NCBI GenBank assembly: GCA_024742485.1
Contig: JANSYK010000001.1
Coordinates: forward strand, 1,736,001-1,800,000
Reading direction: 5' to 3'
DNA from: Alphaproteobacteria bacterium
GTDB taxonomy: Bacteria > Pseudomonadota > Alphaproteobacteria > Rhizobiales > Rhizobiaceae
DNA: 64,000 nt
Positions 7,644 through 22,553 of this stretch are shown here, in pieces. Within the stretch, counting starts at the first letter, position 1. Each line of letters starts with the position of its first letter. The notes beneath the pieces were generated by a model, which was not told where the DNA came from, did not search any database, and saw nothing but the letters and a program-made list of their open reading frames with translations. The translations under genes and the position numbers were made by a program.

Positions 7644-8447
7644 TTATTGCATGATCATGCCGCCATCGATCATGAACAACTGACCGGTCATATAGTCCGA
7701 TTCGGCGGAAGCCAGAAATGCGGCAGAGCCCTTCACGTCATCCGGATAGGAATAGCGCTTCATCAGGATCATGTCTTCGGCAAGCTGATCCATCGACTCC
7801 CCTTCCTTTTCGAATTTGCCGATAGCCACCAGGTCCTTGTCCAGTTGTTCCCACAACTCGGTTCGAACCACACCGGGACCGTAACCATTGACCGTGATAT
7901 TGTGTTCGACCAGCGCTTTCGCGCCGCCATTGATCATCGCCAGGACCGCGTGTTTCGAGCAGGCATAGGGCACGACATCGTCGAAGGCCTGCCTGGACAG
8001 TATGGAGCCGACATTGATGATCTTGTAGGGATAATCCTGCTTCCCCTGCTTGATCATCTGCTTGGCTGCCTCCTGCATCCCGATCAAGACGCCGAGAGCA
8101 TTGACATCCATGATCTTGCGGAAATTCTCCTCCGTAACATCGAGAAACATCAACGGTTTGTTGATACCGGCATTGTTCAACATCACATTGATTGATCCGA
8201 AGGCCTCGACGGTTGACTGGACGGCGGCCGCCATCTGCTCGCGCTGGGTCACGTCAAGAGCAACACCGATGGCTTCTCCACCGGCTGCATTGATGCGTTC
8301 GGCGACATCCCGGCAACCCTGCGCATTGACGTCACCGAGACAGACCTTGGCACCCTGGGCGGCGAAGTATTCACCGATCGCCGCGCCCATACCCTGAGCG
8401 CCGCCCGTGATAAGGACATGTTTACCGGCAAGTCTTGTTTTATCCAT
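7644..8447 (-). CDS. Short-chain dehydrogenase/reductase
   Basis: A 267-residue classical SDR with nucleotide motif TGGAQGMGAA near residue 14, NNAGINKP, and catalytic Tyr/Lys in YACSKHAVLA. It ends with the usual SDYMTGQLFMIDGG tail. Asp in CLGDVN after beta-2 suggests NAD rather than NADP. GGAGGATCCC precedes the ATG at 8447, which excludes longer upstream starts. It diverges from the sugar importer at 8648 and shares its control region, so it probably oxidises the imported polyol or sugar. Confidence 0.82.
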   Translation of the reverse strand: MDKTRLAGKHVLITGGAQGMGAAIGEYFAAQGAKVCLGDVNAQGCRDVAERINAAGGEAIGVALDVTQREQMAAAVQSTVEAFGSINVMLNNAGINKPLMFLDVTEENFRKIMDVNALGVLIGMQEAAKQMIKQGKQDYPYKIINVGSILSRQAFDDVVPYACSKHAVLAMINGGAKALVEHNITVNGYGPGVVRTELWEQLDKDLVAIGKFEKEGESMDQLAEDMILMKRYSYPDDVKGSAAFLASAESDYMTGQLFMIDGGMIMQ

Positions 8448-8550
8448 ATTGGGATCCTCCCGAAATTCTCCGCCGTACAAGGAATTGTCAGCTTGGCGTC
8501 GAACCGGGCCCGGTAAAATTCCAAAGATGTCCAGAATGAATACAAACCAG

Positions 8551-8565
8551 CCAGATTGGATAAAT
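8551..8565. promoter_or_regulatory. Operator copy in the divergent SDR / importer promoter region
   Basis: CCAGATTGGATAAAT shares the 10-mer TTGGATAAAT and 11 of 14 aligned bases with the palindrome at 13397-13411 in front of the HTH-SBP regulator. It lies about 100 bp from both divergent start codons. The match suggests that one regulator, probably the 13478-15298 product, controls both promoters. The remainder of 8448-8647 holds the separate palindrome at 8617 and otherwise nothing I recognise. Confidence 0.45.
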
Positions 8566-8616
8566 CCCCTGTTCATCGCCTGGCGTTTCTTCGGCAACAT
8601 TGAATCCGGCTGAAAG

Positions 8617-8628
8617 ATTTGGCCAAAT
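8617..8628. promoter_or_regulatory. Perfect palindrome ATTTGGCCAAAT upstream of importer ribosome site
   Basis: A 12-bp perfect palindrome ends 8 bases before the GGGAGG ribosome site of the binding-protein gene at 8648. Its half-sites are TTTGG/CCAAA, arranged the other way round from the CCAA/TTGG operator. It could be a second operator or a small mRNA hairpin in the leader. Confidence 0.35.
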
Positions 8629-8647
8629 AGGTAATGGGAGGACACAC

Positions 8648-9685
8648 ATGTCATATCTGAAAAAAGCAATCGGCGTCGCGACTGCCGCGTGCCTGACCGT
8701 CGGTCTGGCTTTCGCACCAGCCTCGGCCCAGGACAAGAAGGGCTCGATTGTTTCATTCAACGGTCCTGCTGGTGAGGCCTATATCGGCCGGTTCATCAAG
8801 GGGATCAAGGAAACTGCCGAACTCAAGGGTTTCGATATCAAGGTCTTTGAAAATCAGTTCAACCAGGCCGAACAGGATCAGCAGGTCCAGCAGGTCCTGG
8901 CGGCTGGTCAATTGCCGGATGTCTTCATCTGGTGGCCGTCGGATGCCACGGCCGGTCTCGGGTCACTGCGTGCCCTTCACAAGACCGGGGTTCCTGTTCT
9001 GAAGATCAATCAGCTTCCGAATGAGCAGGACAAGAAATACATCTTCGGTTATGCCGGTCCGGATGACCGTCTGCGCGCCCGCAATGCCGGATACATGATG
9101 CGCGAGGCCGCAGCGGCCAAGAAGGCCAATGGCGGTGAAGGCTTCAATGTCATCGTTCTGTCCTACCCGCATTCCTATGGCGGTTACGGTCTTTCGATCA
9201 ACGCTTTCAAGGAAGCCATTGCAGGATCGGACCTCAACATCATCGGCGACGTCGACGAGGGCTTCGGACAGGCCAATGGCTACAAGGGCGCGGCAAAACT
9301 CATTGCCAGCGTCAAGGATCAGGGCATTCATTTTGTCTATGGAATGGACGACGCCATCCTCACCGGCGGCATCAAGGCGCTTGAAGAAGCCGGGTATACC
9401 ATGGGCGAGGACGTCATTGCCGTCGGCACTGTGTGCAATGGCGACAAGCAGTTGATCGAAGAAGGCAAGCAGTTTGGAACCACGTTGCAGTCTCCGCTGC
9501 ATGAAGGACAGCTCGCCATCAAGCTGGTCGAGGAATATCTCGATACGGGCAAACTGGAAAACTATATCAACTTCACGCCGAATCCGGCCGTCACCAAGGA
9601 AACCATCGAAACCACCGCTCTGCAGGGCTACGATGGAAAGCTCTATGGTATCAATGAACTGTGTTCAGGTGCCTGGGCACAATAG
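8648..9685 (+). CDS. RbsB-type sugar ABC transporter periplasmic binding protein
   Basis: A 345-residue precursor with a signal peptide (SYLKKAIGVATAACLTVGLA, cut after PASA) and a Peripla_BP_4 fold that opens GSIVSFNGPAGEAYIGRFIKGI. The ligand is probably a sugar or polyol. GGGAGG is 5 bases before the ATG. It heads an importer operon (ATPase, two permeases) and is followed by a GC hairpin. Family members range from ribose and xylose to autoinducer-2 binders, so the ligand is not assignable. Confidence 0.87.
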   Translation: MSYLKKAIGVATAACLTVGLAFAPASAQDKKGSIVSFNGPAGEAYIGRFIKGIKETAELKGFDIKVFENQFNQAEQDQQVQQVLAAGQLPDVFIWWPSDATAGLGSLRALHKTGVPVLKINQLPNEQDKKYIFGYAGPDDRLRARNAGYMMREAAAAKKANGGEGFNVIVLSYPHSYGGYGLSINAFKEAIAGSDLNIIGDVDEGFGQANGYKGAAKLIASVKDQGIHFVYGMDDAILTGGIKALEEAGYTMGEDVIAVGTVCNGDKQLIEEGKQFGTTLQSPLHEGQLAIKLVEEYLDTGKLENYINFTPNPAVTKETIETTALQGYDGKLYGINELCSGAWAQ

Positions 9686-9785: not shown

Positions 9786-11288
9786 ATGCAACCGCTGCTC
9801 AAACTCTCGTCCGTCAAGCGATCCTTCGGTGCAATCCACGCCCTAAAGGGTGTTGATTTCGAAATCATGCCCGGAGAAGTCATGGGTTTGGTCGGCGAAA
9901 ACGGCGCCGGAAAATCGACACTGGTCAAGATCATCAGCGGTTTCGACAATGGCTACAGCGGCGAATACCGGTTCAACGGCGAATCCGTAAATTTCTCGAG
10001 CCCCGCAAAGGCCGAACTGGCAGGCATCGCCATCGCCCAGCAGGAGCTCAGCCTTATCCCGACCATGAGCGTCGCGGAAAACATTTTTCTGGCCGGACAC
10101 AATGTGCCGACCATCGCCGACAAGCGGCGGCTGGTCAAAATGGCTCGCCCCTTTCTCGATGAAGTTGGGCTCGACACCATCAATCCGGCCATCGGCGTCG
10201 ACCGCCTGTCGGTCGGCGAACAGCATCTGGTGGAAGTCGCCCGGCTGATCGCACATGATCCGCAGGTTCTGATCCTGGATGAGCCGACAGCGGCATTGGG
10301 CGAATCCGACAGCATCCGCATCCTCGACATGGTTTCCAGGCTCTCCAAAAAGGGCAAGTCGATCATCTATGTCAGCCATCGCCTGGATGAGATTTTCAAG
10401 ATCACTGATCGGATAACCGTTTTGCGTGATGGTGAGAGCCAGGAGCCGCGGACAGCCGACACGCTGGATGTCAATTCACTGGTCGAGCTGATGCTCGGAC
10501 GGGAGCTGGACATCATGTTTCCGGAACGGCGGCCGAAAACCGACGCTGAACCGCTGATGAGGGTTGAGCAATTGTGGCCGGATGGTTTGCTGGAACCGGT
10601 GGATTTCGAAATCTACCCGGGTGAAATTCTGGGCCTTGCCGGTCAGCTCGGAAGCGGCTCCGGTGAAATCCTTGCCGCCATTGGCGGTGCCCAACTGACC
10701 CGATCCGGCAAATTGTCCTATTCGGGCCGCAGTTTCCTGCCGTCGACACCCAAACAGGCCATCCGGGCCGGCATCGCCTATTGCTCGGAAGACCGCAAGC
10801 TCGATGGCCTGTTTCTTGGTCGGCCAATCAAGGAAAACCTCTCCTCCCCGTCCCTCGGCGCCATATCAAGACTGGGTTGGATGTCATCTGCGGCGGAATG
10901 GAAACTGGCGACCAGTATTGCTGAAAAATTCACCATTGATGCCAGCAGGCTGTCCGCCGAGGCCGGTGTATTGAGCGGCGGTAACCAGCAGAAGGTGGCG
11001 CTTGGAAAATGGCTGTCCATCGAACCGAAGATCATTCTCGTCAACGAACCAACAAGGGGTGTCGATGTCGGCGCGCGGGCCGAAATTTACCAGAAACTGC
11101 GTGATCTTGCCGATTCGGGGGCGGCCATTGTGGTTGCCTCGACCGACATCCAGGAAATCACCAATCTGCCGGACCGGATCATCACCTTCTATCGCGGATT
11201 GAAAATCGGCGAGCTTGCGCTTCAGGAACTTTCGGCCGCGACGATCCTGAAGCAGATCACCGACCCGTTCAACGAGACGAACCTTTAA
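9786..11288 (+). CDS. Sugar ABC transporter ATP-binding protein, two nucleotide-binding domains
   Basis: A 500-residue RbsA/MglA-type ATPase. The first domain has Walker A GENGAGKST, signature LSVGEQHLVE and Walker B VLILDEPTAALGES. The second has the degenerate Walker A of this family (GLAGQLGSGSGE), signature LSGGNQQKV and ILVNEPTRGVDVGA. The ATG at 9786 gives the usual N-terminus MQPLLKLSSVKRSFG; an upstream TTG only adds a non-conserved stretch. It energises import with the permeases at 11303 and 12325. Confidence 0.9.
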   Translation: MQPLLKLSSVKRSFGAIHALKGVDFEIMPGEVMGLVGENGAGKSTLVKIISGFDNGYSGEYRFNGESVNFSSPAKAELAGIAIAQQELSLIPTMSVAENIFLAGHNVPTIADKRRLVKMARPFLDEVGLDTINPAIGVDRLSVGEQHLVEVARLIAHDPQVLILDEPTAALGESDSIRILDMVSRLSKKGKSIIYVSHRLDEIFKITDRITVLRDGESQEPRTADTLDVNSLVELMLGRELDIMFPERRPKTDAEPLMRVEQLWPDGLLEPVDFEIYPGEILGLAGQLGSGSGEILAAIGGAQLTRSGKLSYSGRSFLPSTPKQAIRAGIAYCSEDRKLDGLFLGRPIKENLSSPSLGAISRLGWMSSAAEWKLATSIAEKFTIDASRLSAEAGVLSGGNQQKVALGKWLSIEPKIILVNEPTRGVDVGARAEIYQKLRDLADSGAAIVVASTDIQEITNLPDRIITFYRGLKIGELALQELSAATILKQITDPFNETNL

Positions 11289-11302: not shown

Positions 11303-12328
11303 ATGAGCATGAATGCAGCCACGAACGATCCCGAAATCCGGTCCACCCTGTTCAACAGGATGCTGGACCGGTATTCGCCGCTCGTTGTGATCCTGGTCGC
11401 ACTCTTCGCGGTGGTTTTTGTCTATGGCATGGTCACCGCGCCCAACTTCCTGACGGTCTTCAATTTCAAAACCATCATCCGCGATGCCGCCCTGGTCGGC
11501 ATCATGGGTATCGGCCTGACCTTCGTGACCCTGTCCGGCAACTTTTTCCTGTTATCGATGAAGGAGACAGCCGCACTCTCGATCATCGCCTTTGCGATTG
11601 CCATGTCCAATGGCTATGGGTTCGAGTTGGCTTTCCTGTTCACCATGTGCGTTGCCGTTATTGCCGGCATGCTGCAGGGTGCGCTGATCGGTCTCGGTGG
11701 CAATCCGATTGTGGTCACGCTCGGCGCCGCCGGTCTGTTTTTCGGGATCGCCTCCTGGTGGAGCGACAATCTCGTGGTTTCCTTTCGACGGCCGCACGGT
11801 GCAGAGTGGCTAGGATCCGGCTCGTTTCTCGGTCTGCCGAACATCACCATTGCCTTCATCCTGATCGCGATCACGGCCGAAATAGTCCTGCGCTACACCA
11901 GCTTCGGCCGGCAGGTCTATCTCATTGGCGCCAACCGCGCCGCCGGACGGGCGACCGGTCATGAAAATTTCTCCATGGCGATCAAGACCTGCACAATCGC
12001 CTCGGTTTGCTCGGCCTTTGTCGCCATTGCGTTTTCAGCCCAGGTATCGAGCGCGCATGTCAACTATTTCTCCTCCGAATTCGGATCATCCGGGGACATG
12101 ACAATCCTCGTCATCGCCACGGTGATGGTCGCCGGCAACTCGATCATGGGCGGCTACGGGTCGACATTGCGCACAAGTCTGGGCGCCATCTTCATTTCGA
12201 CCGTCGACAACATGATGGTCCTACACGGTTTCAACAGCGGTCCAAGGGTTCTTGCCGTTGGCCTGATGATCGTTTTTAGCATCATCGTGTTTGCGCTTGT
12301 ACGCAGGGGGAGCAGGGTTCAGGAATGA
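11303..12328 (+). CDS. Sugar ABC transporter permease (RbsC family), first subunit
   Basis: A 341-residue BPD_transp_2 permease with multiple hydrophobic helices, including the conserved regions IMGIGLTFVTLSGNFFLLSM, GNPIVVTLGAAGLFFGIASW and YTSFGRQVYLIGANRAAGRATG. It starts 14 bases after the ATPase stop and its TGA overlaps the next permease start (ATGA). The two different permeases probably form a heterodimeric channel. Confidence 0.88.
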   Translation: MSMNAATNDPEIRSTLFNRMLDRYSPLVVILVALFAVVFVYGMVTAPNFLTVFNFKTIIRDAALVGIMGIGLTFVTLSGNFFLLSMKETAALSIIAFAIAMSNGYGFELAFLFTMCVAVIAGMLQGALIGLGGNPIVVTLGAAGLFFGIASWWSDNLVVSFRRPHGAEWLGSGSFLGLPNITIAFILIAITAEIVLRYTSFGRQVYLIGANRAAGRATGHENFSMAIKTCTIASVCSAFVAIAFSAQVSSAHVNYFSSEFGSSGDMTILVIATVMVAGNSIMGGYGSTLRTSLGAIFISTVDNMMVLHGFNSGPRVLAVGLMIVFSIIVFALVRRGSRVQE

Positions 12329-13392
12329 CACAGAAATCCGACACCGGCCTGCCGGGCCGTCTGAAGAACTGGGTTGTCGGCAACCCGGACCTTGCCTTTG
12401 CCATCCTGCTGGCGGTGTGCGTCTATGGCTATTTCGCGCTGACCAATGATCTGTTTTTCACCCACCGGACAAGCTATGCGATCATGGAACGCTTTGCCGT
12501 GCTTGGCCTTGTCGGCCTGGCGCTCACACTGTGTATCATTGCTGGCGAGATCGATCTTTCCATCGGCTCGAACGCCGCCCTTGCGGCGGTGATCGTTGTC
12601 CGCTTCACCGACTCTCTCGGCGCTCCCACCGCCGCTTTGATCGCCATTGCCATATCCAGCGTCATTGGTCTCATTCAAGGGTATTTTGTGGCCTACCTGC
12701 GCATTCGGGCCATCGTATTGACGGTCGGAACATTGATGCTCCTGCGCGGCGTGGCCCTCTTTGCCGCCGAAGAGAAGACGGTGATGCTGACGGATTTCAC
12801 CGTTCCCGATTTCATCTCGACCAAGATGCTGGTCTATTTTTCACCGGCAAGCCTGCTGGTCATCGGGGTCTTTGTCCTCATCGCCCTGTTCATGAACTAC
12901 ACACGCTACGGGCGCGAGATCTACGCCATTGGTGGCGCACGCAAGGAGGCGCTGGCATCCGGCATTGACCTGAAACGCCCGATGATGATCGTCTTCACCA
13001 TCTCCGGTTTTTGTGCCGGGCTGGGCGGGGTTATCATCGGCCTCAGATCGGGAACCGCGCAGGCGCTGGGCCTGCAATACCTGCTGCTTGCAGGCACCGT
13101 GGCTGCTTTCATCGGTGGCGTCAGTATTCTTGGCGGTCGCGGTGGTGTCATCGGCGCCGCAATCGGGACCCTCACGGTCAACTTCCTGAATACAGGGCTC
13201 GTGTTCAACGTGACACCATCTTTCATGGTCCAGCTCTATCTGGGCATCCTTCTGATGGTGGTGATCATGTTCCAGACCGGCTCCCGTGTCTTTCAGAGCC
13301 AACAAAGGCGCAAGCAGATTCTCAGTGATGTGGACCGCCGCCGTGAGAGTCTCAAGGTTCGAAACCCGCAGCCTGTTTCCGTACCACCTTAA
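12325..13392 (+). CDS. Sugar ABC transporter permease (RbsC family), second subunit
   Basis: A 355-residue BPD_transp_2 permease. Family hallmarks are GLALTLCIIAGEIDLSIGSNAAL, RAIVLTVGTLMLLRG, YTRYGREIYAIGGARKEALASGI and GGVSILGGRGGVIGAAIGTL. A charged C-terminal tail of about 40 residues follows the last helix. It is translationally coupled to the preceding permease by a 4-base overlap and closes the importer operon. Confidence 0.88.
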   Translation: MTQKSDTGLPGRLKNWVVGNPDLAFAILLAVCVYGYFALTNDLFFTHRTSYAIMERFAVLGLVGLALTLCIIAGEIDLSIGSNAALAAVIVVRFTDSLGAPTAALIAIAISSVIGLIQGYFVAYLRIRAIVLTVGTLMLLRGVALFAAEEKTVMLTDFTVPDFISTKMLVYFSPASLLVIGVFVLIALFMNYTRYGREIYAIGGARKEALASGIDLKRPMMIVFTISGFCAGLGGVIIGLRSGTAQALGLQYLLLAGTVAAFIGGVSILGGRGGVIGAAIGTLTVNFLNTGLVFNVTPSFMVQLYLGILLMVVIMFQTGSRVFQSQQRRKQILSDVDRRRESLKVRNPQPVSVPP

Positions 13393-13396
13393 AAAA

Positions 13397-13411
13397 TATC
13401 CAATTTGGATA
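13397..13411. promoter_or_regulatory. Candidate operator of the HTH-SBP regulator
   Basis: TATCCAATTTGGATA is a perfect 15-bp inverted repeat (TATCCAA, centre T, TTGGATA) 67 bp before the ATG of the regulator gene. A related sequence lies at 8551-8565, and an almost identical 12-mer, ATCCAATTTGGA, lies inside the regulator gene at 14967-14978. The position suits autoregulation. Confidence 0.6.
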
Positions 13412-13477
13412 AATTGTGCATTAGAATAACCCGGCCTGGACATTAACGTGTCGGAAAATCCAGTCGGAGGAAGCCCC

Positions 13478-15298
13478 ATGCAGAGCGGAACGCAGTCCGT
13501 TGCCAATCTGTTGGGCCGCTATGATCGGCAGGCAGCAAACGGGCAGCCTGAAGGACCCTATGAGACAGCCGATCAGCGCCCGGCATTCGGCGTGTCCAGC
13601 CGGGAAATGGCACATTTTCTCGATTTCATCGAACAGATGGAAAACGAGGTTACCCAGGCCCTTTCCATCAAGACCGGTTACAGTGAAATGCGCATGTTGG
13701 TCACCCTGCTGCGCAACCATCTGACAGGCAAGCTCACGACGAGTTCGTCACTGGTGGCCAATTCGGGCCTATCCTACGGAACGGCCATGCGGGGGATCGA
13801 TTCTCTGGTTGATCGCGGGCTGATCCTCAAGCGCCCGCGAACCGTGACGGGCAAATCCTTTTCCCTCCATCCAACGGAAAAGATGCTGCTCGAATGGCAG
13901 GAACTGGCACGGCGCAGCCATTCCCTCGTCGGAAGCACCTTCGGATCCCGCGGTGGTGAGCGAAGCGAATTGTCCGACTATTTTTTCGGCGCCTCCTATT
14001 CGACCGGCAGTGTCCTCCCGCCGCCCAGCATCCTGGAATCGAAGCTTCCGATCAACAACGATCTCAGGCTTCTCGTTCACGCCGATCCGACCTTCATGGC
14101 AATGAACGTATTGAAGAAGCAATTTGAAACGGTGTTCGGCGTGGGCATCCGGTCACGCGCTCTTTCCATCGACCGGCTGCGCGAGGAGATTCTGACCAAC
14201 TCGCAGTCTGATCAGTCCCGCTACGATATTGTTGCCTGCGACCTGCCCTGGTTCGGTGAAATGGCTGCTGCCGGTCATTTTCTGCCGCTCGATCAATTGA
14301 TGAAGGACTGCGCCTTCAACGCCACCGACTTTCACCAGGAAGCCCTTGCCAGTGCACGCTATCAGGGCCGTCAATACGGCATTCCGGTGCAGACCACGCC
14401 GGAACTTCTGGTCTGCCGCAGTGACATCTTTGCCGAACGCGGTATCCGCCCGCCACGCACGATAGAGGAAACCCTGTCGGCTGCACGCCAGCTGCATGAT
14501 CCCTTTGGCGGCATGGCCGGCATTGCCTGGAATGCGGCACGCGGCACACCGCTCGGACATTCCTTTCTGTTCGTCATGGCGGCCTTCGGTCAGCCAGTGC
14601 TCAATCTGAGAAAAACAGCAACGGGATTCGATGGTGAGAACGTTTCCGGCGAGAACTTCCGTCCGATGTTTGACACGGGCGCGGCGCGCGATACGGCCGA
14701 GTACTTTCGCGAACTCCTGCATTATTCGCCGCGTGGCATTCTCAACATGTCCTGGTATGAGCGCGCGCGGTGTTACGCAGACGGTGCGGCTGCCATTGCC
14801 TATTGTGCGACATTGCTGGCACCGCTCTTCGAACTGGATGAAAAATCACCCGCCTTTGGCAAGACAGAATATCTTCCCCATCCGGCCGGCCCGAAGGGGC
14901 GAAACATAGCACCCGTCGGAGGGTATGCCCTTGCCATTCCGTCGAATATCGCGCCGGAACGAATTGATCCAATTTGGACAGCTTTGGTGTCGCTAACATC
15001 GGCGCAGACCGTCAAACTCTATATCGAGAACGGCAGCCTGGTGACACCACGCTTCAGCGTCAGCATGGACCCGGAGGTGAAACGGATTTCACCGATGATA
15101 TCCATTGTGGATGAAATGGCGCGGGTCGGCGTCTTTCAGATGTGGCCAAGGCCGCCTGTTCCGGAAATTGCAGAGATCATCGCCATTGCCGGCGAGGAAA
15201 TGCACGACATGTTGCTCGGTGCAAAATCCACTAGCCAGGCTTTGGAAAACGCGCAGAACCGCGCCGATGCATTGATGCGTTCGAATGGACATTATTAA
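13478..15298 (+). CDS. Winged-helix regulator fused to a solute-binding-protein-type sensor domain
   Basis: A 606-residue protein without signal peptide or membrane helix. About residues 60-130 look like a MarR-type winged helix (SEMRMLVTLLRNHL, LVANSGLSYGTAMRGIDSLVDRG, then a KRPRTVTGKSFSLHPTEK wing). From about 185 to the C-terminus it reads as an SBP_bac_1 (MalE-like) domain: NDLRLLVHADPTFM, YDIVACDLPWFGEMAAAGHFLPLD, YGIPVQTTPELLVCRSDIF, GGYALAIP. The ATG at 13478 has GGAGGAAG in front; an upstream in-frame GTG does not. It probably senses a sugar in the cytosol and controls the adjoining importer and catabolic genes. The fold of its sensor differs from that of the importer's own RbsB-type binding protein. 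Confidence 0.75.
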   Translation: MQSGTQSVANLLGRYDRQAANGQPEGPYETADQRPAFGVSSREMAHFLDFIEQMENEVTQALSIKTGYSEMRMLVTLLRNHLTGKLTTSSSLVANSGLSYGTAMRGIDSLVDRGLILKRPRTVTGKSFSLHPTEKMLLEWQELARRSHSLVGSTFGSRGGERSELSDYFFGASYSTGSVLPPPSILESKLPINNDLRLLVHADPTFMAMNVLKKQFETVFGVGIRSRALSIDRLREEILTNSQSDQSRYDIVACDLPWFGEMAAAGHFLPLDQLMKDCAFNATDFHQEALASARYQGRQYGIPVQTTPELLVCRSDIFAERGIRPPRTIEETLSAARQLHDPFGGMAGIAWNAARGTPLGHSFLFVMAAFGQPVLNLRKTATGFDGENVSGENFRPMFDTGAARDTAEYFRELLHYSPRGILNMSWYERARCYADGAAAIAYCATLLAPLFELDEKSPAFGKTEYLPHPAGPKGRNIAPVGGYALAIPSNIAPERIDPIWTALVSLTSAQTVKLYIENGSLVTPRFSVSMDPEVKRISPMISIVDEMARVGVFQMWPRPPVPEIAEIIAIAGEEMHDMLLGAKSTSQALENAQNRADALMRSNGHY

Positions 15299-15335: not shown

Positions 15336-16634
15336 ATGAACACAGCGCTCAACCCCAGGCTCCTGCGCCCGGAAGATGTAAATCCCAACTGGCGTTGGGA
15401 CCGCCATATCCCGGCTCCCGGCCATATGGCGGTGGATTTCGAGCGGCGGGTCGACCATGATCGGTTGCGCAGATACCGTTTATCACGCGCCCGCGAAGCG
15501 CTGAAAAACTCAGAATGCGGCGCGCTGCTGCTCTTCGACGTCAACAATATCCGTTATATTTCCGGCACCAAGATCGGCGAGTGGGAGCGTGACAAACTGT
15601 GCCGCTTTGCGCTGTTGATGGGCGACGAGGAACCCATCGTCTGGGACTTCGGTTCGGCTGCCGTTCATCATCGATTGTATTGCGACTGGCTTGATCCGGA
15701 GCGCTGCCGCGCCGGAATGCTTGGCATGCGCGGCACGGTTCCACCCGCAGTTGGCCTTATGAAAAACCATGCCGAGGAAGTGATGGGACTGCTGAAGGCA
15801 GCTGGGGTTTCCGACATGCCGGTGGGCGTGGACTATGCCGAAACGGCCATGTTCTTCGAACTGCAGAAGGCTGGCATGACCATCGTCGATGGCCAGCAGG
15901 TGATGCTGGATGCACGGGAAATCAAGAATATCGATGAGATCATGCTTCTGAACCAGGCAGCCGCCATGGTCGATGGCGTCTACCACATGATTCACGAGGA
16001 ACTGAAACCCGGTGTGCGCGAAAGCGACATTGTCGCGCTGTCCAACAAGATGCTCTACGAAATGGGCTCCGACGATGTCGAGGCGATCAACGCCATTTCT
16101 GGCGAACGGTGCAGCCCGCATCCGCACAATTTCACCGACCGGCTGATCCGCCCGGGCGATCAGGCCTTTTTCGACATTCTGCAATCCTATCAGGGTTATC
16201 GAACCTGCTACTACCGAACCTTCAATGTCGGGACAGCGACGCCGGATCAAAATGATGCCTATGTCAAATGCCGGCAATGGCTCGATCACGCGATTTCACT
16301 GATCAAGCCGGGCGTTTCGACCGACACGGTGGCAGCCGTCTGGCCGAAGGCCGAGGAGTTCGGTTTCCCGAATGAAATGGCGGCCTTCGGTTTGCAATTC
16401 GGCCACGGGCTCGGACTGGCGCTGCACGAGCGTCCCATCATCTCTCGTCTCGTCTCGTTTGACGACCCCATGGAGATCAAGACGGGCATGGTGTTTGCGC
16501 TGGAGACCTTCTGTCCGGCAAAGGACGGATATTCGGCCGCGCGCATCGAGGAAGAGGTCATCGTCACCGATACCGGCTGTCAGGTGATCAGTCTCTTCCC
16601 GGCCCAGGACCTCCCGATTGCCAATCGCTACTGA
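15336..16634 (+). CDS. M24 family (creatinase / Xaa-Pro peptidase / DddP-like) hydrolase with altered metal site
   Basis: A 432-residue protein with a creatinase N-terminal domain (CGALLLFDVNNIRYISGT around 61-78) and a pita-bread catalytic domain. It retains Asp280, the GHGLGLALHERP box (His357), Glu390 and Glu405. The second metal Asp, normally in GYxSDxTRT, is Cys291 here (GYRTCYYRT). Loss of one ligand could give a mononuclear or metal-free enzyme, as in creatinase. It lies between the HTH-SBP regulator and E1 alpha in the same orientation, so its substrate is likely part of this pathway; peptide, amidine or DMSP-type substrates are all possible. Confidence 0.75.
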   Translation: MNTALNPRLLRPEDVNPNWRWDRHIPAPGHMAVDFERRVDHDRLRRYRLSRAREALKNSECGALLLFDVNNIRYISGTKIGEWERDKLCRFALLMGDEEPIVWDFGSAAVHHRLYCDWLDPERCRAGMLGMRGTVPPAVGLMKNHAEEVMGLLKAAGVSDMPVGVDYAETAMFFELQKAGMTIVDGQQVMLDAREIKNIDEIMLLNQAAAMVDGVYHMIHEELKPGVRESDIVALSNKMLYEMGSDDVEAINAISGERCSPHPHNFTDRLIRPGDQAFFDILQSYQGYRTCYYRTFNVGTATPDQNDAYVKCRQWLDHAISLIKPGVSTDTVAAVWPKAEEFGFPNEMAAFGLQFGHGLGLALHERPIISRLVSFDDPMEIKTGMVFALETFCPAKDGYSAARIEEEVIVTDTGCQVISLFPAQDLPIANRY

Positions 16635-16643
16635 ACGCATCCC

Positions 16644-17624
16644 ATGAAAAAAGCTGAGAACCACAACGCGGAAAACCTTCTGCGCATGTATCGCCAGATG
16701 GTGCGCATCCGTACCTTCGAAGACATCGCCAACGAGCTCTATCTGTCCGCCAAAATGCCTGGACTGACCCATATGTATTCAGGTCAGGAGGCCGTTGCGG
16801 TCGGCATATGCGAGGCCCTCGACAAAACCGACCACATCACCTCGACCCATCGCGGGCACGGCCATTGCGTCGCCAAGGGTGCCGAATTCAAGGAAATGTT
16901 CAGCGAGTTGCTGGGCAAGGAAGAAGGCTACTGCCGCGGCAAGGGCGGATCCATGCACATTGCCGACCAGGACAACGGCAATCTTGGCGCCAATGCCATC
17001 GTCGGCGGTTCCGCCGGCATTGCCACCGGGGCCGCATTGAGTGCCCGCCGGCTTGGCAGGGACAGCGTGACCGTGTGCTTCTTCGGTGATGGCGCGATGG
17101 GCCAGGGCCTGCTCTATGAGGTGATGAACATGGCTGCGCTTTGGAAGTTGCCGGTCATCTACGCCTGCGAGAACAATCTCTACGGGGAATACACCCACAT
17201 GTCCGAGATGGCGGCCGGCGACCTCAAGGCCAGGGCCGAGGCGTTCGGCATCGAAGCCTTCGAGGTTGACGGACAGGATGTCCTGGCGGTCAACAGGCTC
17301 GCACAGCAACTGGTCGCCCGTGCGCGCAACCATGAAGGCCCCTTTTTCGTGACGCTGAACACCTATCGCTACCATGGACACCATGTGGGCGACATCAACC
17401 GGACCTATTATCGCAGCAAGGAAGAGGAAGCGCACTGGAAGGAAAACCGCGACCCGATCACCAATTTCGGTGCATGGCTTATCGCAGAGAAAATTGCCGG
17501 TGCCGATGATCTGACCAGCGTGCGCGAGACAATCAGACAGGAAGCCGATGAGGCCGTTGAACATGCATTGGGTGCGGCCTATCCGCCCGCCACGGATGTG
17601 GGGGAGCATGTTTATGCGGATTGA
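16644..17624 (+). CDS. Pyruvate/acetoin-type dehydrogenase E1 component, alpha subunit
   Basis: A 326-residue E1 alpha with the thiamine-diphosphate motif beginning GDGAMGQGLLYEVMNM and ending ENN, plus ITSTHRGHGHCVAKG and RGKGGSMHIAD typical of AcoA/PdhA. It decarboxylates a 2-oxo acid (or cleaves acetoin) together with the beta subunit. It begins 9 bases after the M24 gene and overlaps the beta-subunit region closely. The length fits AcoA-type proteins. The catabolic context (ALDH, SDR, importer) argues against housekeeping pyruvate dehydrogenase. Confidence 0.85.
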   Translation: MKKAENHNAENLLRMYRQMVRIRTFEDIANELYLSAKMPGLTHMYSGQEAVAVGICEALDKTDHITSTHRGHGHCVAKGAEFKEMFSELLGKEEGYCRGKGGSMHIADQDNGNLGANAIVGGSAGIATGAALSARRLGRDSVTVCFFGDGAMGQGLLYEVMNMAALWKLPVIYACENNLYGEYTHMSEMAAGDLKARAEAFGIEAFEVDGQDVLAVNRLAQQLVARARNHEGPFFVTLNTYRYHGHHVGDINRTYYRSKEEEAHWKENRDPITNFGAWLIAEKIAGADDLTSVRETIRQEADEAVEHALGAAYPPATDVGEHVYAD

Positions 17625-17656
17625 AACCGAAAATGACACCGCAGCGAGGCTCGGCC

Positions 17657-18652
17657 ATGCGTGAAATCTCACTGTCCCAGGCCGTCAATGAAGCCATCGC
17701 CGAAGAGATGCGACGCGATGAAACCGTTTTCCTGCTGGGTGAAGATGTCGCCGAGGCCGGAACGCCCTTCAAGGTACTCTCCGGACTGGTCGAGGAGTTC
17801 GGACCCCAGCGGATATTGGATACACCGATCTCTGAACCCGGCTTTACCGGCATTGCCGTCGGCGCGGCCATGACAGGCTTGCGGCCGATTGTCGATCTGA
17901 TGTTCGGAGATTTCATCTTCCTGGTGATGGACCAGCTCTGCAACCAGGCAGCCAAGACCCACTACATGTCCGGCGGCAAACTGACGGTTCCGATGGTTTT
18001 GCGGACCAATCTTGGCGCCACCCGCCGCTCTGCCGCCCAGCACAGCCAGTCCCTGCATGCGCTGGTCGCGCATATTCCCGGCCTCAAGGTGGCGCTCCCC
18101 TCCAGCGCCTATGAGGCCAAAGGCCTGCTGAAGACTGCGGTCCGCGACAACAATCCGGTCGTCATCTTCGAAGACAAGCTGATGTATCAGGACAAGGCGC
18201 CGGTGCCGGAAGAGGAGTATCTGATCCCCTTCGGTCAAGCCAATATTGTGCGCGAGGGACGCGACGTCACGCTGATCGGGACGTCATCCATGGTCCAGGT
18301 CGCCGAAGAGGCTGCTGATATTCTCGCCGGCCAGAACATCTCCGCCGAAGTGGTTGATCCACGCACAATCGTGCCGCTGGATGAAGCGACAATTCTGGGT
18401 TCGGTCAAGAAAACCAGCCGCGCGGTTGTCATAGACGAAGGGCATCAAAGTTACGGCGTAACAGCGGAGATTGCATCCCGGATCGCGGAAAAGGCCTTCT
18501 ATCATCTCGATGCACCGGTCCAGAGAATGGGTGCCATGGATGTGCCCATTCCATTTTCACCCGCCCTGGAGGATCTGACCGTCCCGACGCCGCAATCCGT
18601 TGCGGAACGGGCCGGCGCGGCTGTGCGCGGGGAGCTCTTTCATGACGCATGA
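17657..18652 (+). CDS. Pyruvate/acetoin-type dehydrogenase E1 component, beta subunit
   Basis: A 331-residue E1 beta beginning MREISLSQAVNEAIAEEM. It has LLGEDVAEAGTPFKV, DTPISEPGFTGIAVGAAM, the RTNLGATRRSAAQHSQS loop and the C-terminal EVVDPRTIVPLDEATI and VIDEGHQSYG motifs of transketolase-C domains. GAGG lies 8 bases before the ATG at 17657; in-frame TTG 17621 and ATG 17633 are possible but lack support. Its 3' end overlaps the E2-like gene by 11 bases. Confidence 0.87.
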   Translation: MREISLSQAVNEAIAEEMRRDETVFLLGEDVAEAGTPFKVLSGLVEEFGPQRILDTPISEPGFTGIAVGAAMTGLRPIVDLMFGDFIFLVMDQLCNQAAKTHYMSGGKLTVPMVLRTNLGATRRSAAQHSQSLHALVAHIPGLKVALPSSAYEAKGLLKTAVRDNNPVVIFEDKLMYQDKAPVPEEEYLIPFGQANIVREGRDVTLIGTSSMVQVAEEAADILAGQNISAEVVDPRTIVPLDEATILGSVKKTSRAVVIDEGHQSYGVTAEIASRIAEKAFYHLDAPVQRMGAMDVPIPFSPALEDLTVPTPQSVAERAGAAVRGELFHDA

Positions 18653-19667
18653 GGTCACCATGCCGCAACTGGGCATGGCGCAGGACACCGGGCTCATTGT
18701 CTCCTGGCTGAAGCAACCCGGTGACCAAGTCAAATCCGGGGATGTCCTCATGGAGGTGGAGACAGACAAGAGCACCATGGAACTCGAAGCGGCCCATGAC
18801 GGTTATCTGACCGAAATCAGGGCGCAAGCCGGCGAAAATGTCCCCGTCGGCACCGTCATAGCCATCATTTCGGACAGCGCCGGCAGCGTAGCACCTGCGC
18901 CAGCCGCGATGCTGGAACCCGATGTGCCGAACTCTGAAGATCCCGTTGTGGCCGCACCCGTCGATGTCGCGCCCGCCTTGTCCAGGGCCGACCCGGCTCC
19001 TCCTCCCAATGCGCATCCGGCGCCGTCACATGAAAAGGTGCTGGCGTCGCCAAAGGCGAAACTCGCCGCATATCGACGCGGGATCGACCTGCAACAACTC
19101 GTTCGACAAGGTGCGCGGCAGCCTATCCATTTCGCCGACCTTGAAACGGCCGTTGCAACCGCCGCCCCGCCGACAGCGCAGAGCGCACTTATCGTTCAGG
19201 TCGATCGCCAACCGATGGATACATTCGTCGAATGGGCTTCCGGCGTGGCCGGCAAACCGATAGAACCGGCATCCGTTTGGCTCGCCTTTGCGACGCGGAC
19301 CTTCAGAAACGCCGTCGACAGTGCACCGGCAGACGGCCTTGTCGTCGAATACGCCCAATACGGATCTGACGACGCTCCGAGCTTTGCCGTCGATGCCGAC
19401 AAGGTTGTGTTAAGCAGCATTCGCACGTTGGAGCAGGTTGATCGGGTGAGCGATCTGAAGATCCTCGACCTCTCTGCCACGCGACTTTCCGACTATCGCC
19501 CCTCCGGCACCGATGGCGCGCCCGCACTCGTCGTCGGCGCCATTGGCACGGACAAATACTCCATCAACCTGCATTTTCAGGAGGACCGATTGCCACTGAA
19601 CGTGGCCATTGCCCTGCTTGACGATCTTGCCGGTCATGCGGCCGAGCCGATGAAGCACCTGCTTTGA
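18642..19667 (+). CDS. Lipoyl-domain E2-like protein with degenerate acyltransferase domain
   Basis: A 341-residue protein in E2 order. Residues 1-78 are a lipoyl domain with lipoylation Lys43 in EVETDKSTMELEA. A Pro/Ala-rich linker follows, then a peripheral-subunit-binding domain at about 128-165 (ASPKAKLAAYRRGIDLQQL). The last 160 residues look like a shortened E2 acyltransferase domain. The catalytic HxxxDG motif is missing: the expected place reads NLHFQEDRLPLNVA. It may carry lipoate for the E1 partners without normal acyl transfer to CoA, or pass the acyl group elsewhere. No E3 lipoamide dehydrogenase gene is nearby. Confidence 0.78.
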   Translation: MTHEVTMPQLGMAQDTGLIVSWLKQPGDQVKSGDVLMEVETDKSTMELEAAHDGYLTEIRAQAGENVPVGTVIAIISDSAGSVAPAPAAMLEPDVPNSEDPVVAAPVDVAPALSRADPAPPPNAHPAPSHEKVLASPKAKLAAYRRGIDLQQLVRQGARQPIHFADLETAVATAAPPTAQSALIVQVDRQPMDTFVEWASGVAGKPIEPASVWLAFATRTFRNAVDSAPADGLVVEYAQYGSDDAPSFAVDADKVVLSSIRTLEQVDRVSDLKILDLSATRLSDYRPSGTDGAPALVVGAIGTDKYSINLHFQEDRLPLNVAIALLDDLAGHAAEPMKHLL

Positions 19668-19681
19668 AAGACCCCGTGAAC

Positions 19682-21109
19682 ATGCTGAACCAGCTTTATA
19701 TTAATGGCCATTGGCGCGACACCGCTGACGGCCAGACCTTTGATGTCATCAATCCTGCCAATGAAACGGTCCTTGCAAGTGTCGCCTCTGCGACCATCGA
19801 AGATGCTGTCCTCGCAATCGATGCTGCAGAGGCAGCGTCCAGGGATTGGGCAAAGCAGTCACCACGGGCACGCAGCGAGGTGCTGCGCCGCGCTTTCTCA
19901 CTGTTCAGCGAACGACTGGATGATTTTGCACGGCTGATCACATTGGAAAATGGCAAGGCCCGCAGCGATGCCATGGGAGAGGCAAGCTATGCGGCAGAAT
20001 TTTTTCGATGGTATGCGGAGGAGGCCGTTCGGGTGGATGGCCACATGGGCATCGCGCCGGCCTCCGGTGCCCGCACCCTGGTCCATCACAAACCCGCCGG
20101 CATATCCGTGCTGGTGACACCCTGGAACTATCCGGCGGCGATGGGCACCCGCAAAATCGCCCCGGCGCTGGCAGCGGGCTGTCCGGTGATCATCAAACCG
20201 GCGAGTGAAACACCGCTCACCATGCTTGCGCTGATGCCGTTGCTCGAGGAGGCCGGCGTGCCGCCCGGCATTGTCAATGTCCTTCCCTCACGCCAATCGG
20301 GCGCCATTGTCGATGCCATGTTGCATGATCCGCGTGTCCGGGTCGTCTCCTTCACAGGGTCGACCGCGGTCGGCCGTAAACTGCTGCATGCCGCCGCCGA
20401 CCAGATCCTCAAACCGGCCATGGAACTCGGCGGCAACGCCCCATTCATTGTCTTCGAGGACGCCGATATCGATGCCGCCGTCGAAGGCCTGATGGTCGCC
20501 AAGATGCGCAATCTTGGGGAGGCTTGTACCGCGGCCAACCGCATCTATGTTCATCAATCGGTCGAAGCACAGTTCGTCGCGCAATTTGTTGCCCGCATGG
20601 GAGCCCTCGCCATGGGCAACGGGCTCGATGATGGCGTGGATGTCGGTCCCCTTGTCAACGCCGACACGCGCGACAAGGTCTCTGCCTTTGTCGATGACGC
20701 GGTGAATAAGGGCGCGGAGATCAAGCTTGGTGGGCAAAAACCGGACGGTATCGGTTTCTTCTATCCGCCCACCGTACTCACCAATGTCCCGGACACAGCC
20801 GACTGTCTCGGGGACGAGATATTCGGACCGGTGGCGGCCATTCAGACATTTACAGGCGAAGATGACGTGATCGCGCGGGCCAATGACACGGAATACGGCC
20901 TGGTCGCCTATGTCTTCACTGGAGACATGAAACGGGGCCTCAGCGTTTCGGAAAGGCTGGATTACGGAATGGTTGGCCTCAATCGCGGCCTGGTTTCCGA
21001 TCCCGCCGCACCTTTTGGTGGCACCAAACAGTCGGGTCTTGGTCGCGAAGGCGGCAAGGAAGGCATTCTGGAGTTTATGGAAACACAATATATTTCCACC
21101 CTCTGGTAA
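19682..21109 (+). CDS. Aldehyde dehydrogenase, succinate-semialdehyde-dehydrogenase-like
   Basis: A 475-residue NAD(P)-dependent ALDH. It shows TPWNYPAAMGTRKIAPALAA, the FTGSTAVGRKLL dinucleotide region, general base Glu in ELGGNAPFIVFEDADID and the nucleophile Cys in NLGEACTAANR. The C-terminus has EIFGPVA and PFGGTKQSGLGREGG. GabD/SSADH-type enzymes are the nearest family by motif. A TTG overlapping the E2 stop (19664) and a GTG at 19676 are alternative starts. It is the last gene of the block and would oxidise an aldehyde product to an acid. Confidence 0.87.
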   Translation: MLNQLYINGHWRDTADGQTFDVINPANETVLASVASATIEDAVLAIDAAEAASRDWAKQSPRARSEVLRRAFSLFSERLDDFARLITLENGKARSDAMGEASYAAEFFRWYAEEAVRVDGHMGIAPASGARTLVHHKPAGISVLVTPWNYPAAMGTRKIAPALAAGCPVIIKPASETPLTMLALMPLLEEAGVPPGIVNVLPSRQSGAIVDAMLHDPRVRVVSFTGSTAVGRKLLHAAADQILKPAMELGGNAPFIVFEDADIDAAVEGLMVAKMRNLGEACTAANRIYVHQSVEAQFVAQFVARMGALAMGNGLDDGVDVGPLVNADTRDKVSAFVDDAVNKGAEIKLGGQKPDGIGFFYPPTVLTNVPDTADCLGDEIFGPVAAIQTFTGEDDVIARANDTEYGLVAYVFTGDMKRGLSVSERLDYGMVGLNRGLVSDPAAPFGGTKQSGLGREGGKEGILEFMETQYISTLW

Positions 21110-22001: not shown

Positions 22002-22553
22002 ATGAAACGTGCACGCACCGATCACATTCGTGATCTCATAGAACGCCTTGCCCGCATCAATGCCGCCGATGAATGGACGGATGATCTCAACCCGACTCAG
22101 TGGGCGGCGCTGTCTTATCTTGCACGCGCCAACAGGTTTTCCCGTTCGCCTTCACAGGTAACCGAATACATGTCGGCGACACGCGGAACCGTCTCCCAGA
22201 CACTCAAGGCCCTGTCTCGAAAGGGACTGATCGAGGAGGTCCGCTCAACCGTCGATCGGCGCTGGATTTCCTATACTGTCACCAAGCGGGGTTTCGCAGC
22301 TCTGGATCGGACAACTGTGATCGAGCAGGCCCTCGATCACCTGGCCGAACCGGATCAGGAAAGCCTTGCTGCCGGACTGCAGACCCTGTTGCAGGGTGCG
22401 CTTGAAGCGCGCGGCAAACGGCCCTTCGGCCAGTGCAGATCCTGCCGCCACCACAAGCCGGAACCGGGCGGTGGCTATTGCATGCTGTTGCACGAGGCGT
22501 TGAAACCGGAAGAAACGATGCAGATTTGCCATGAACATCAAGCTGCGGCATGA
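22002..22553 (+). CDS. MarR-family regulator with C-terminal four-cysteine cluster
   Basis: A 183-residue protein with a MarR winged helix at about 28-105 (LNPTQWAALSYLARAN, TRGTVSQTLKALSRKGLIEEV, wing STVDRRWISYTVTKRG). An unusual tail carries Cys145, Cys148, Cys160 and Cys176 (C-x2-C-x11-C-x15-C) with several neighbouring His residues. This could hold an iron-sulfur cluster or zinc, giving a redox- or metal-sensing switch. It diverges from the secreted protein and overlaps no other gene; 22554-22700 downstream shows nothing clear. Confidence 0.8.
   Translation: MKRARTDHIRDLIERLARINAADEWTDDLNPTQWAALSYLARANRFSRSPSQVTEYMSATRGTVSQTLKALSRKGLIEEVRSTVDRRWISYTVTKRGFAALDRTTVIEQALDHLAEPDQESLAAGLQTLLQGALEARGKRPFGQCRSCRHHKPEPGGGYCMLLHEALKPEETMQICHEHQAAA

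Follow-up and report, generated by a model that had tools for sequence, protein, structure and literature searches.

A probable cytosolic regulator that joins a winged helix to a MalE-type solute-binding domain, with a candidate palindromic operator, in an alphaproteobacterial catabolic locus

The protein encoded at positions 13478-15298 of a 64,000-nucleotide stretch of Rhizobiaceae DNA (the window) is very probably a cytosolic one-component regulator, predicted from sequence comparison to control an RbsB-type importer and an acetoin-dehydrogenase-like operon via TATCCA-N3-TGGATA palindromes. The protein is a fusion of a winged helix and a MalE-type solute-binding domain, it has no evident export signal, it belongs to a family of such fusions, and the palindrome is conserved beside many of their genes. 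The features of the locus are as follows, with no strand given for operator sites.

7644..8447, minus strand: short-chain dehydrogenase (closest NCBIfam model acetoin reductase, with a score of 231 bits where the cut-off is 304; start placed by eye, 7644-8456 being the stretch searched)
8528..8542: operator-like site between the dehydrogenase and importer genes, two mismatches
8548..8562: second operator-like site, 20 bp from 8528..8542, two mismatches
8648..9685, plus strand: RbsB-type (Peripla_BP_4) binding protein of the importer, from Pfam
9786..11288, plus strand: importer ATPase (start placed by eye)
11303..12328, plus strand: importer permease 1 (named by eye and synteny)
12325..13392, plus strand: importer permease 2 (named by eye and synteny)
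13397..13411: candidate operator TATCCAATTTGGATA, a perfect palindrome (sequence match, conservation across loci)
13428..13442: possible second site, degenerate and weak with four mismatches, 31 bp downstream of 13397-13411
13478..15298, plus strand: regulator gene, 606 aa (open reading frame, profile searches, structure model); winged helix at residues 42-154, linker at 155-176, MalE-type solute-binding domain from about 186
15336..16634, plus strand: M24-family protein (top NCBIfam model DddP at 103 bits, where the cut-off is 600; hence not DddP according to this model)
16644..17624, plus strand: TPP-dependent dehydrogenase E1 alpha (pyruvate-dehydrogenase-type model, under cut-off)
17621..18652, plus strand: TPP-dependent dehydrogenase E1 beta (open reading frame as listed, start uncertain)
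18600..19667, plus strand: lipoyl-domain E2-like protein (open reading frame as listed, start uncertain)
19664..21109, plus strand: aldehyde dehydrogenase (best model succinate-semialdehyde type, under cut-off)

The candidate operator lies 4 bp past the stop codon of the second permease gene and 66 bp ahead of the regulator ATG, and is the only exact TATCCA-N3-TGGATA in the whole genome; when one mismatch is allowed, the genome contains 8 such places (7 of them inexact) versus 2 for the reversed control. Two further operator-like matches, at 14966 and 15099, were not counted, as both fall within the regulator coding sequence. The match at 15099 encodes conserved residues and recurs at about the same gene position in four relatives (L001, L004, L010 and L013), while that at 14966-14980 has the second-best PWM score in the window (17.6) and could be either an auxiliary site or a chance match.

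Sites of this kind frequently occur in pairs. The best site has at most two mismatches in 36 of 70 regions, and 21 of these 36 contain a second site (up to three mismatches) within 60 bp, versus a mean of 1.5 and a maximum of 5 with permuted half-sites. Seventeen of the 21 spacings fall at 20-21 bp (11) or 29-31 bp (6), for which the controls give a mean of 0.3 and a maximum of 5. This phasing would fit paired dimers bound on one face of the helix.

In the proposed mechanism, the winged helix, presumably dimeric, would bind TATCCA-N3-TGGATA palindromes, often two in helical phase, both upstream of its own gene and between the dehydrogenase and the RbsB-type importer. The substrate would come in through this importer, and either the substrate or an early catabolite would bind the MalE-type Venus-flytrap domain in the cytoplasm. 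Closure of the domain would rearrange the winged helices on the operators, most likely lifting repression of the importer and the catabolic genes. We infer the dimer, the paired binding and the cytosolic ligand; that the ligand is polyol-like is a guess. Promoter scans of both window operator sites found no sigma-70-like promoter, so operator position cannot separate repression from activation. Ligand-relieved repression is preferred because of the analogy with MarR proteins, whose winged helices mostly repress, and the preference is a guess that tilts modestly toward a repressor.

A variant of this reading, which we consider less probable, is an activator with the same architecture and operator, in which the liganded protein would recruit RNA polymerase. 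The repressive tendency of MarR-type winged helices counts against it without being decisive, and the paired sites are compatible with activation as well. Passages of PMC13060122 describe DsvR as an activator of zapC and SgrR as driving sgrS, both of which favor activation; SgrR is described there as also repressing its own gene, which points the other way, again not decisively.

The preliminary description had placed a full SBP_bac_1-like domain after about residue 185, and this is borne out: Pfam matches to SBP_bac_1 (E 7.1e-16) and SBP_bac_8 (E 2.6e-9) both exceed cut-off, and the model has a two-lobe fold from about residue 186. In the fold search all matches fall within residues 191-606 of the model, that is, within the MalE-type solute-binding domain only. 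A PDB search matched 5iai_A to residues 188-598 (E 2.6e-25), and to a profile built from 15 family members with an E of 7.4e-56. A single-sequence structure model of the regulator was set aside (pLDDT 34.8). The residues W258, N352, W426 and G481-G482 are invariant across the family and retained in 5iai, suggesting that they line the ligand pocket. It has to be considered that the MalE-type domain serves as a dimerization or protein-interaction module that has lost small-molecule binding; the presence of the whole two-lobe fold and the invariance of residues common to an ABC binding protein make this improbable.

In the N-terminal part, the secondary structure of the model displays winged-helix topology with flanking helices, and the winged helix at residues 42-154 lies inside the first 180 residues, where it had been anticipated. 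The accompanying description of this region as MarR-like holds less firmly, as the label draws on model topology and on profiles under their curated cut-offs (MarR_2, 15.0 bits versus 27; MarR, 13.2 versus 24.6). A single regulator domain was also matched by Pfam below threshold.

The conservation of the operator was probed in relatives of the regulator. One scan yielded 45 loci at 42-79% identity, mostly from Alphaproteobacteria, together with Halomonas-type, Granulosicoccaceae and Saccharospirillum records. Sites with no more than one mismatch lie upstream of the regulator in 14 of the 45 orthologues; the dehydrogenase/importer region has one in 6 of 22 cases, and the stretch directly downstream of the regulator gene in 8 of 44 (7 of these 8 being Devosia-type). 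For each of these places, 89 permuted half-sites give a mean of 0.01 loci and a maximum of 1. If two mismatches are tolerated, 35 of 45 loci have a site in one or more of these positions; these counts take in near relatives and do not equal independent events. The remaining ten (L013, L015, L026-L029, L032, L035, L037 and L042) have no such site in the three scanned places, and include all four Halomonas-type loci (L026-L029). Among 22 more distant fusions, from which six loci duplicating others are excluded, an upstream site occurs in 10 with at most one mismatch (permuted controls, 0) and in 14 with at most two, leaving 8 without one at that threshold. The ten fall in a sister set (10/12) and not in the rest (0/10), a split made after the hits were known, such that only the pooled 10/22 is a valid rate. 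Two of the ten, L066 and L060 (also labelled L077, L084), share 45-48% identity with the window regulator. The palindrome at 13397-13411, singled out in the preliminary description, is accordingly one that recurs across both orthologue loci and distant fusions.

Variants of the palindrome are also observed. The symmetrical form TATTCA-N3-TGAATA lies upstream of L118-L120, which are fusions in genomes of about 1.4 Mb, and the change looks like operator covariation. In the divergent member L067, the palindrome TTTCTCAATTTGAGAAA lies upstream of the fusion gene with the CA-N3-TG core kept.

The surroundings of the site differ between lineages. In the Devosia-type loci whose neighbors were read (L030 and L036), a MalE-type importer operon lies downstream of the regulator and site, and an Agrobacterium relative (L123) has such an operon downstream, with a two-mismatch site there. 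In a Phaeobacter relative (L122) the regulator is divergent to the importer, and the gap between them contains a two-mismatch site and a weak four-mismatch site 21 bp away; the corresponding gap in Skermanella (L125) holds two sites. These arrangements bear on the reading that assigns the palindrome to a different local regulator and some other role to the fusion protein. A MarR-type gene is present in the window at 22002-22553 (by eye) and could be such a regulator, but the site accompanies the fusion gene across differing neighborhoods, whether upstream as in many loci, downstream in the Devosia type, divergent in L122 and L125, or before distant fusions, and we regard this reading as very unlikely.

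The cellular location of the protein is predicted from its N-terminus. The gene has GGAGGA ahead of its ATG, as expected of the strong-SD, 606-residue gene without signal peptide proposed in the preliminary description, and its N-terminus is polar by hydropathy, not of the exported kind found in ABC importer binding proteins. The highest 15-residue hydropathy mean among 36 family N-termini is 1.24 (window regulator, -0.26), versus 1.63-2.23 for seven exported relatives from the same genome, which were scanned over a wider stretch. No export signal was evident in this hydropathy-only comparison of the 36 family N-termini, in agreement with the cytosolic sensor initially suggested. Plasmid records carry a different label: of 32 matches, 25 are listed, of which 21 are named extracellular solute-binding protein, 1 is named periplasmic component and 3 are without a listed gene. 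That the protein is simply an exported solute-binding protein whose N-terminal extension is spurious, as this label would have it, can practically be dismissed given the winged helix conserved as a domain, the lack of an evident signal sequence and the co-occurring operator.

The distribution of the family has been surveyed with a winged-helix query. Within the order, 20 of 199 genomes matched and 17 of these, own included, carry the full fusion; the 21 places comprise 17 fusions (the window gene among them as L046), three non-fusions (L071-L073) and one other, a 558-residue frame. At the class level, matches with E up to 1e-15 came from 8 of 385 genomes, own included, and all nine places are fusions. 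A phylum sample gave matches in 55 of 398 genomes at E up to 0.001; at E below 1e-30 there are 6 genomes with 8 places and frames of 596-714 residues, and 6 of the 8 places were fetched. In the phylum and class searches the best 10 or 11 candidates per genome were scored. The nearest winged-helix relatives outside the solute-binding fusions, among those tested, are receiver-domain proteins (3 of 4) and the MarR-type L071 and L072. Pfam analysis of four weaker relatives found Response_reg (E 1.5e-20 to 5.5e-25) with MarR_2 (E 6e-4 to 1.6e-9) in three and HTH_27 only in the fourth. Receiver domains are joined to the same kind of winged helix in L091, L092 and L093. From these comparisons, the DNA-binding module seems to be common to response regulators and solute-binding fusions.

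A tree built from 29 fused and 9 exported domains places all fused domains on one side of a branch with support 100/99; on this topology, the fused solute-binding domains may have had a single origin. The exported proteins have long branches and their own order is unsure. L117, from the rest group of distant fusions, falls near the window subfamily. The MalE-type binding proteins of the Devosia loci L030 and L036 were considered as close kin of the regulator sensor and rejected, as they are not close in the tree. Eleven of the 45 loci are absent from alignment A1: near-copies, the fragmentary L045, and L040, in which a stop codon interrupts the frame as read from the beginning of the match (the true start may be further in). 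In L021, a second fusion gene (7846-9654, 37% identical) lies beside another importer of the same type.

The neighboring genes suggest oxidation of a diol or polyol followed by acetoin-dehydrogenase-like cleavage. Near the regulator, the importer binding protein occurs in 22 of 45 loci, the M24-family gene in 14 and E1 alpha in 13, with some loci limited by contig ends; the catabolic genes are non-universal neighbors. Seventeen Halomonas-, Devosia- and Kaistia-type loci are without the RbsB-type binding protein, and 15 of these encode a same-type ATPase or permease (27-36% identity). Four Halomonas-type loci retain the dehydrogenase at 77-79% identity. In L122 the regulator is followed by dehydrogenase, M24, E1 alpha and beta, lipoyl protein, aldehyde dehydrogenase, E2 and lpdA genes. 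The nearest model for the window M24-family protein is the DMSP lyase DddP, and its operon has an acetoin-dehydrogenase-like E1. Intradiol dioxygenase and maleylacetate reductase genes lie at 997-2972 of L124 and an intradiol dioxygenase gene at 1-64 of L125, and L026 and L027 look similar by eye; in those branches the substrate may be a ring compound or a cyclic polyol. As had been pointed out initially, the sensor fold (MalE-type SBP_bac_1) differs from that of the importer binding protein (Peripla_BP_4), meaning that importer and regulator would sense ligands via different folds.

On balance, we favor the view that these proteins form a distinct cytosolic family with a MalE-fold ligand switch, an operator code of its own (TATCCA-N3-TGGATA, with variants such as TATTCA-N3-TGAATA), paired sites two or three helical turns apart, and a winged helix found also behind receiver domains. 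This DNA-binding module would thus serve phosphorylation signalling in one lineage, whereas another would have joined it to a sugar-receptor fold. The MalE type would then join the folds used as one-component cytosolic sensors, namely the RbsB type (LacI), a smaller type (LysR) and SBP_bac_5 (SgrR). The operator allows this prediction to be tested at once. MalE-type domains are familiar engineering scaffolds, and the family supplies natural examples in which such a sensor is linked to DNA binding. Since 21 of the 25 plasmid relatives listed are labelled extracellular, their regulons have likely been overlooked.

Several known systems invite comparison. LacI/GalR proteins likewise use a periplasmic-binding-protein fold as a cytosolic sugar sensor, combining an RbsB-type fold with a LacI helix-turn-helix, whereas the window regulator has a MalE-type fold; neither LacI element was matched in it by Pfam (E up to 1). 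LysR proteins pair a winged helix of the LysR helix-turn-helix type with a binding-protein-like cytosolic effector domain, which is much smaller than the sensor described here, and the LysR-type helix-turn-helix is absent from the Pfam tables of the window regulator. MarR proteins share with it the winged-helix topology, weak profile matches and a palindromic site beside their own gene, but the window regulator matches under curated cut-offs and carries a fused ligand domain some 420 residues long. The protein in 5iai (Arad_9887, listed as Sugar ABC transporter), whose ligand we take to be ribitol, is an importer binding protein, in contrast to a winged-helix fusion without an export signal. 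L091-L093 carry an akin winged helix with Response_reg in place of the solute-binding input domain. A literature search of titles and abstract starts, with most subscription papers outside its coverage, found no description of a regulator combining a winged helix with SBP_bac_1. Portions of a survey state that domains with solute-binding-protein signatures also act as sensors of transcriptional regulators (PMC9602780). Closest in kind, from passages of PMC13060122, are DsvR, with an N-terminal helix-turn-helix and SBP_bac_5, and SgrR, named there as its homologue: the likeness lies in an N-terminal helix-turn-helix followed by a C-terminal ABC-type solute-binding domain, and the difference in the sensor, SBP_bac_5 in SgrR/DsvR versus SBP_bac_1 here, with neither SgrR_N nor SBP_bac_5 matched by Pfam (E up to 1) in the window regulator. 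The architecture is uncommon, as initially stated, yet it defines a family, and one with a described analogue in kind in SgrR/DsvR.
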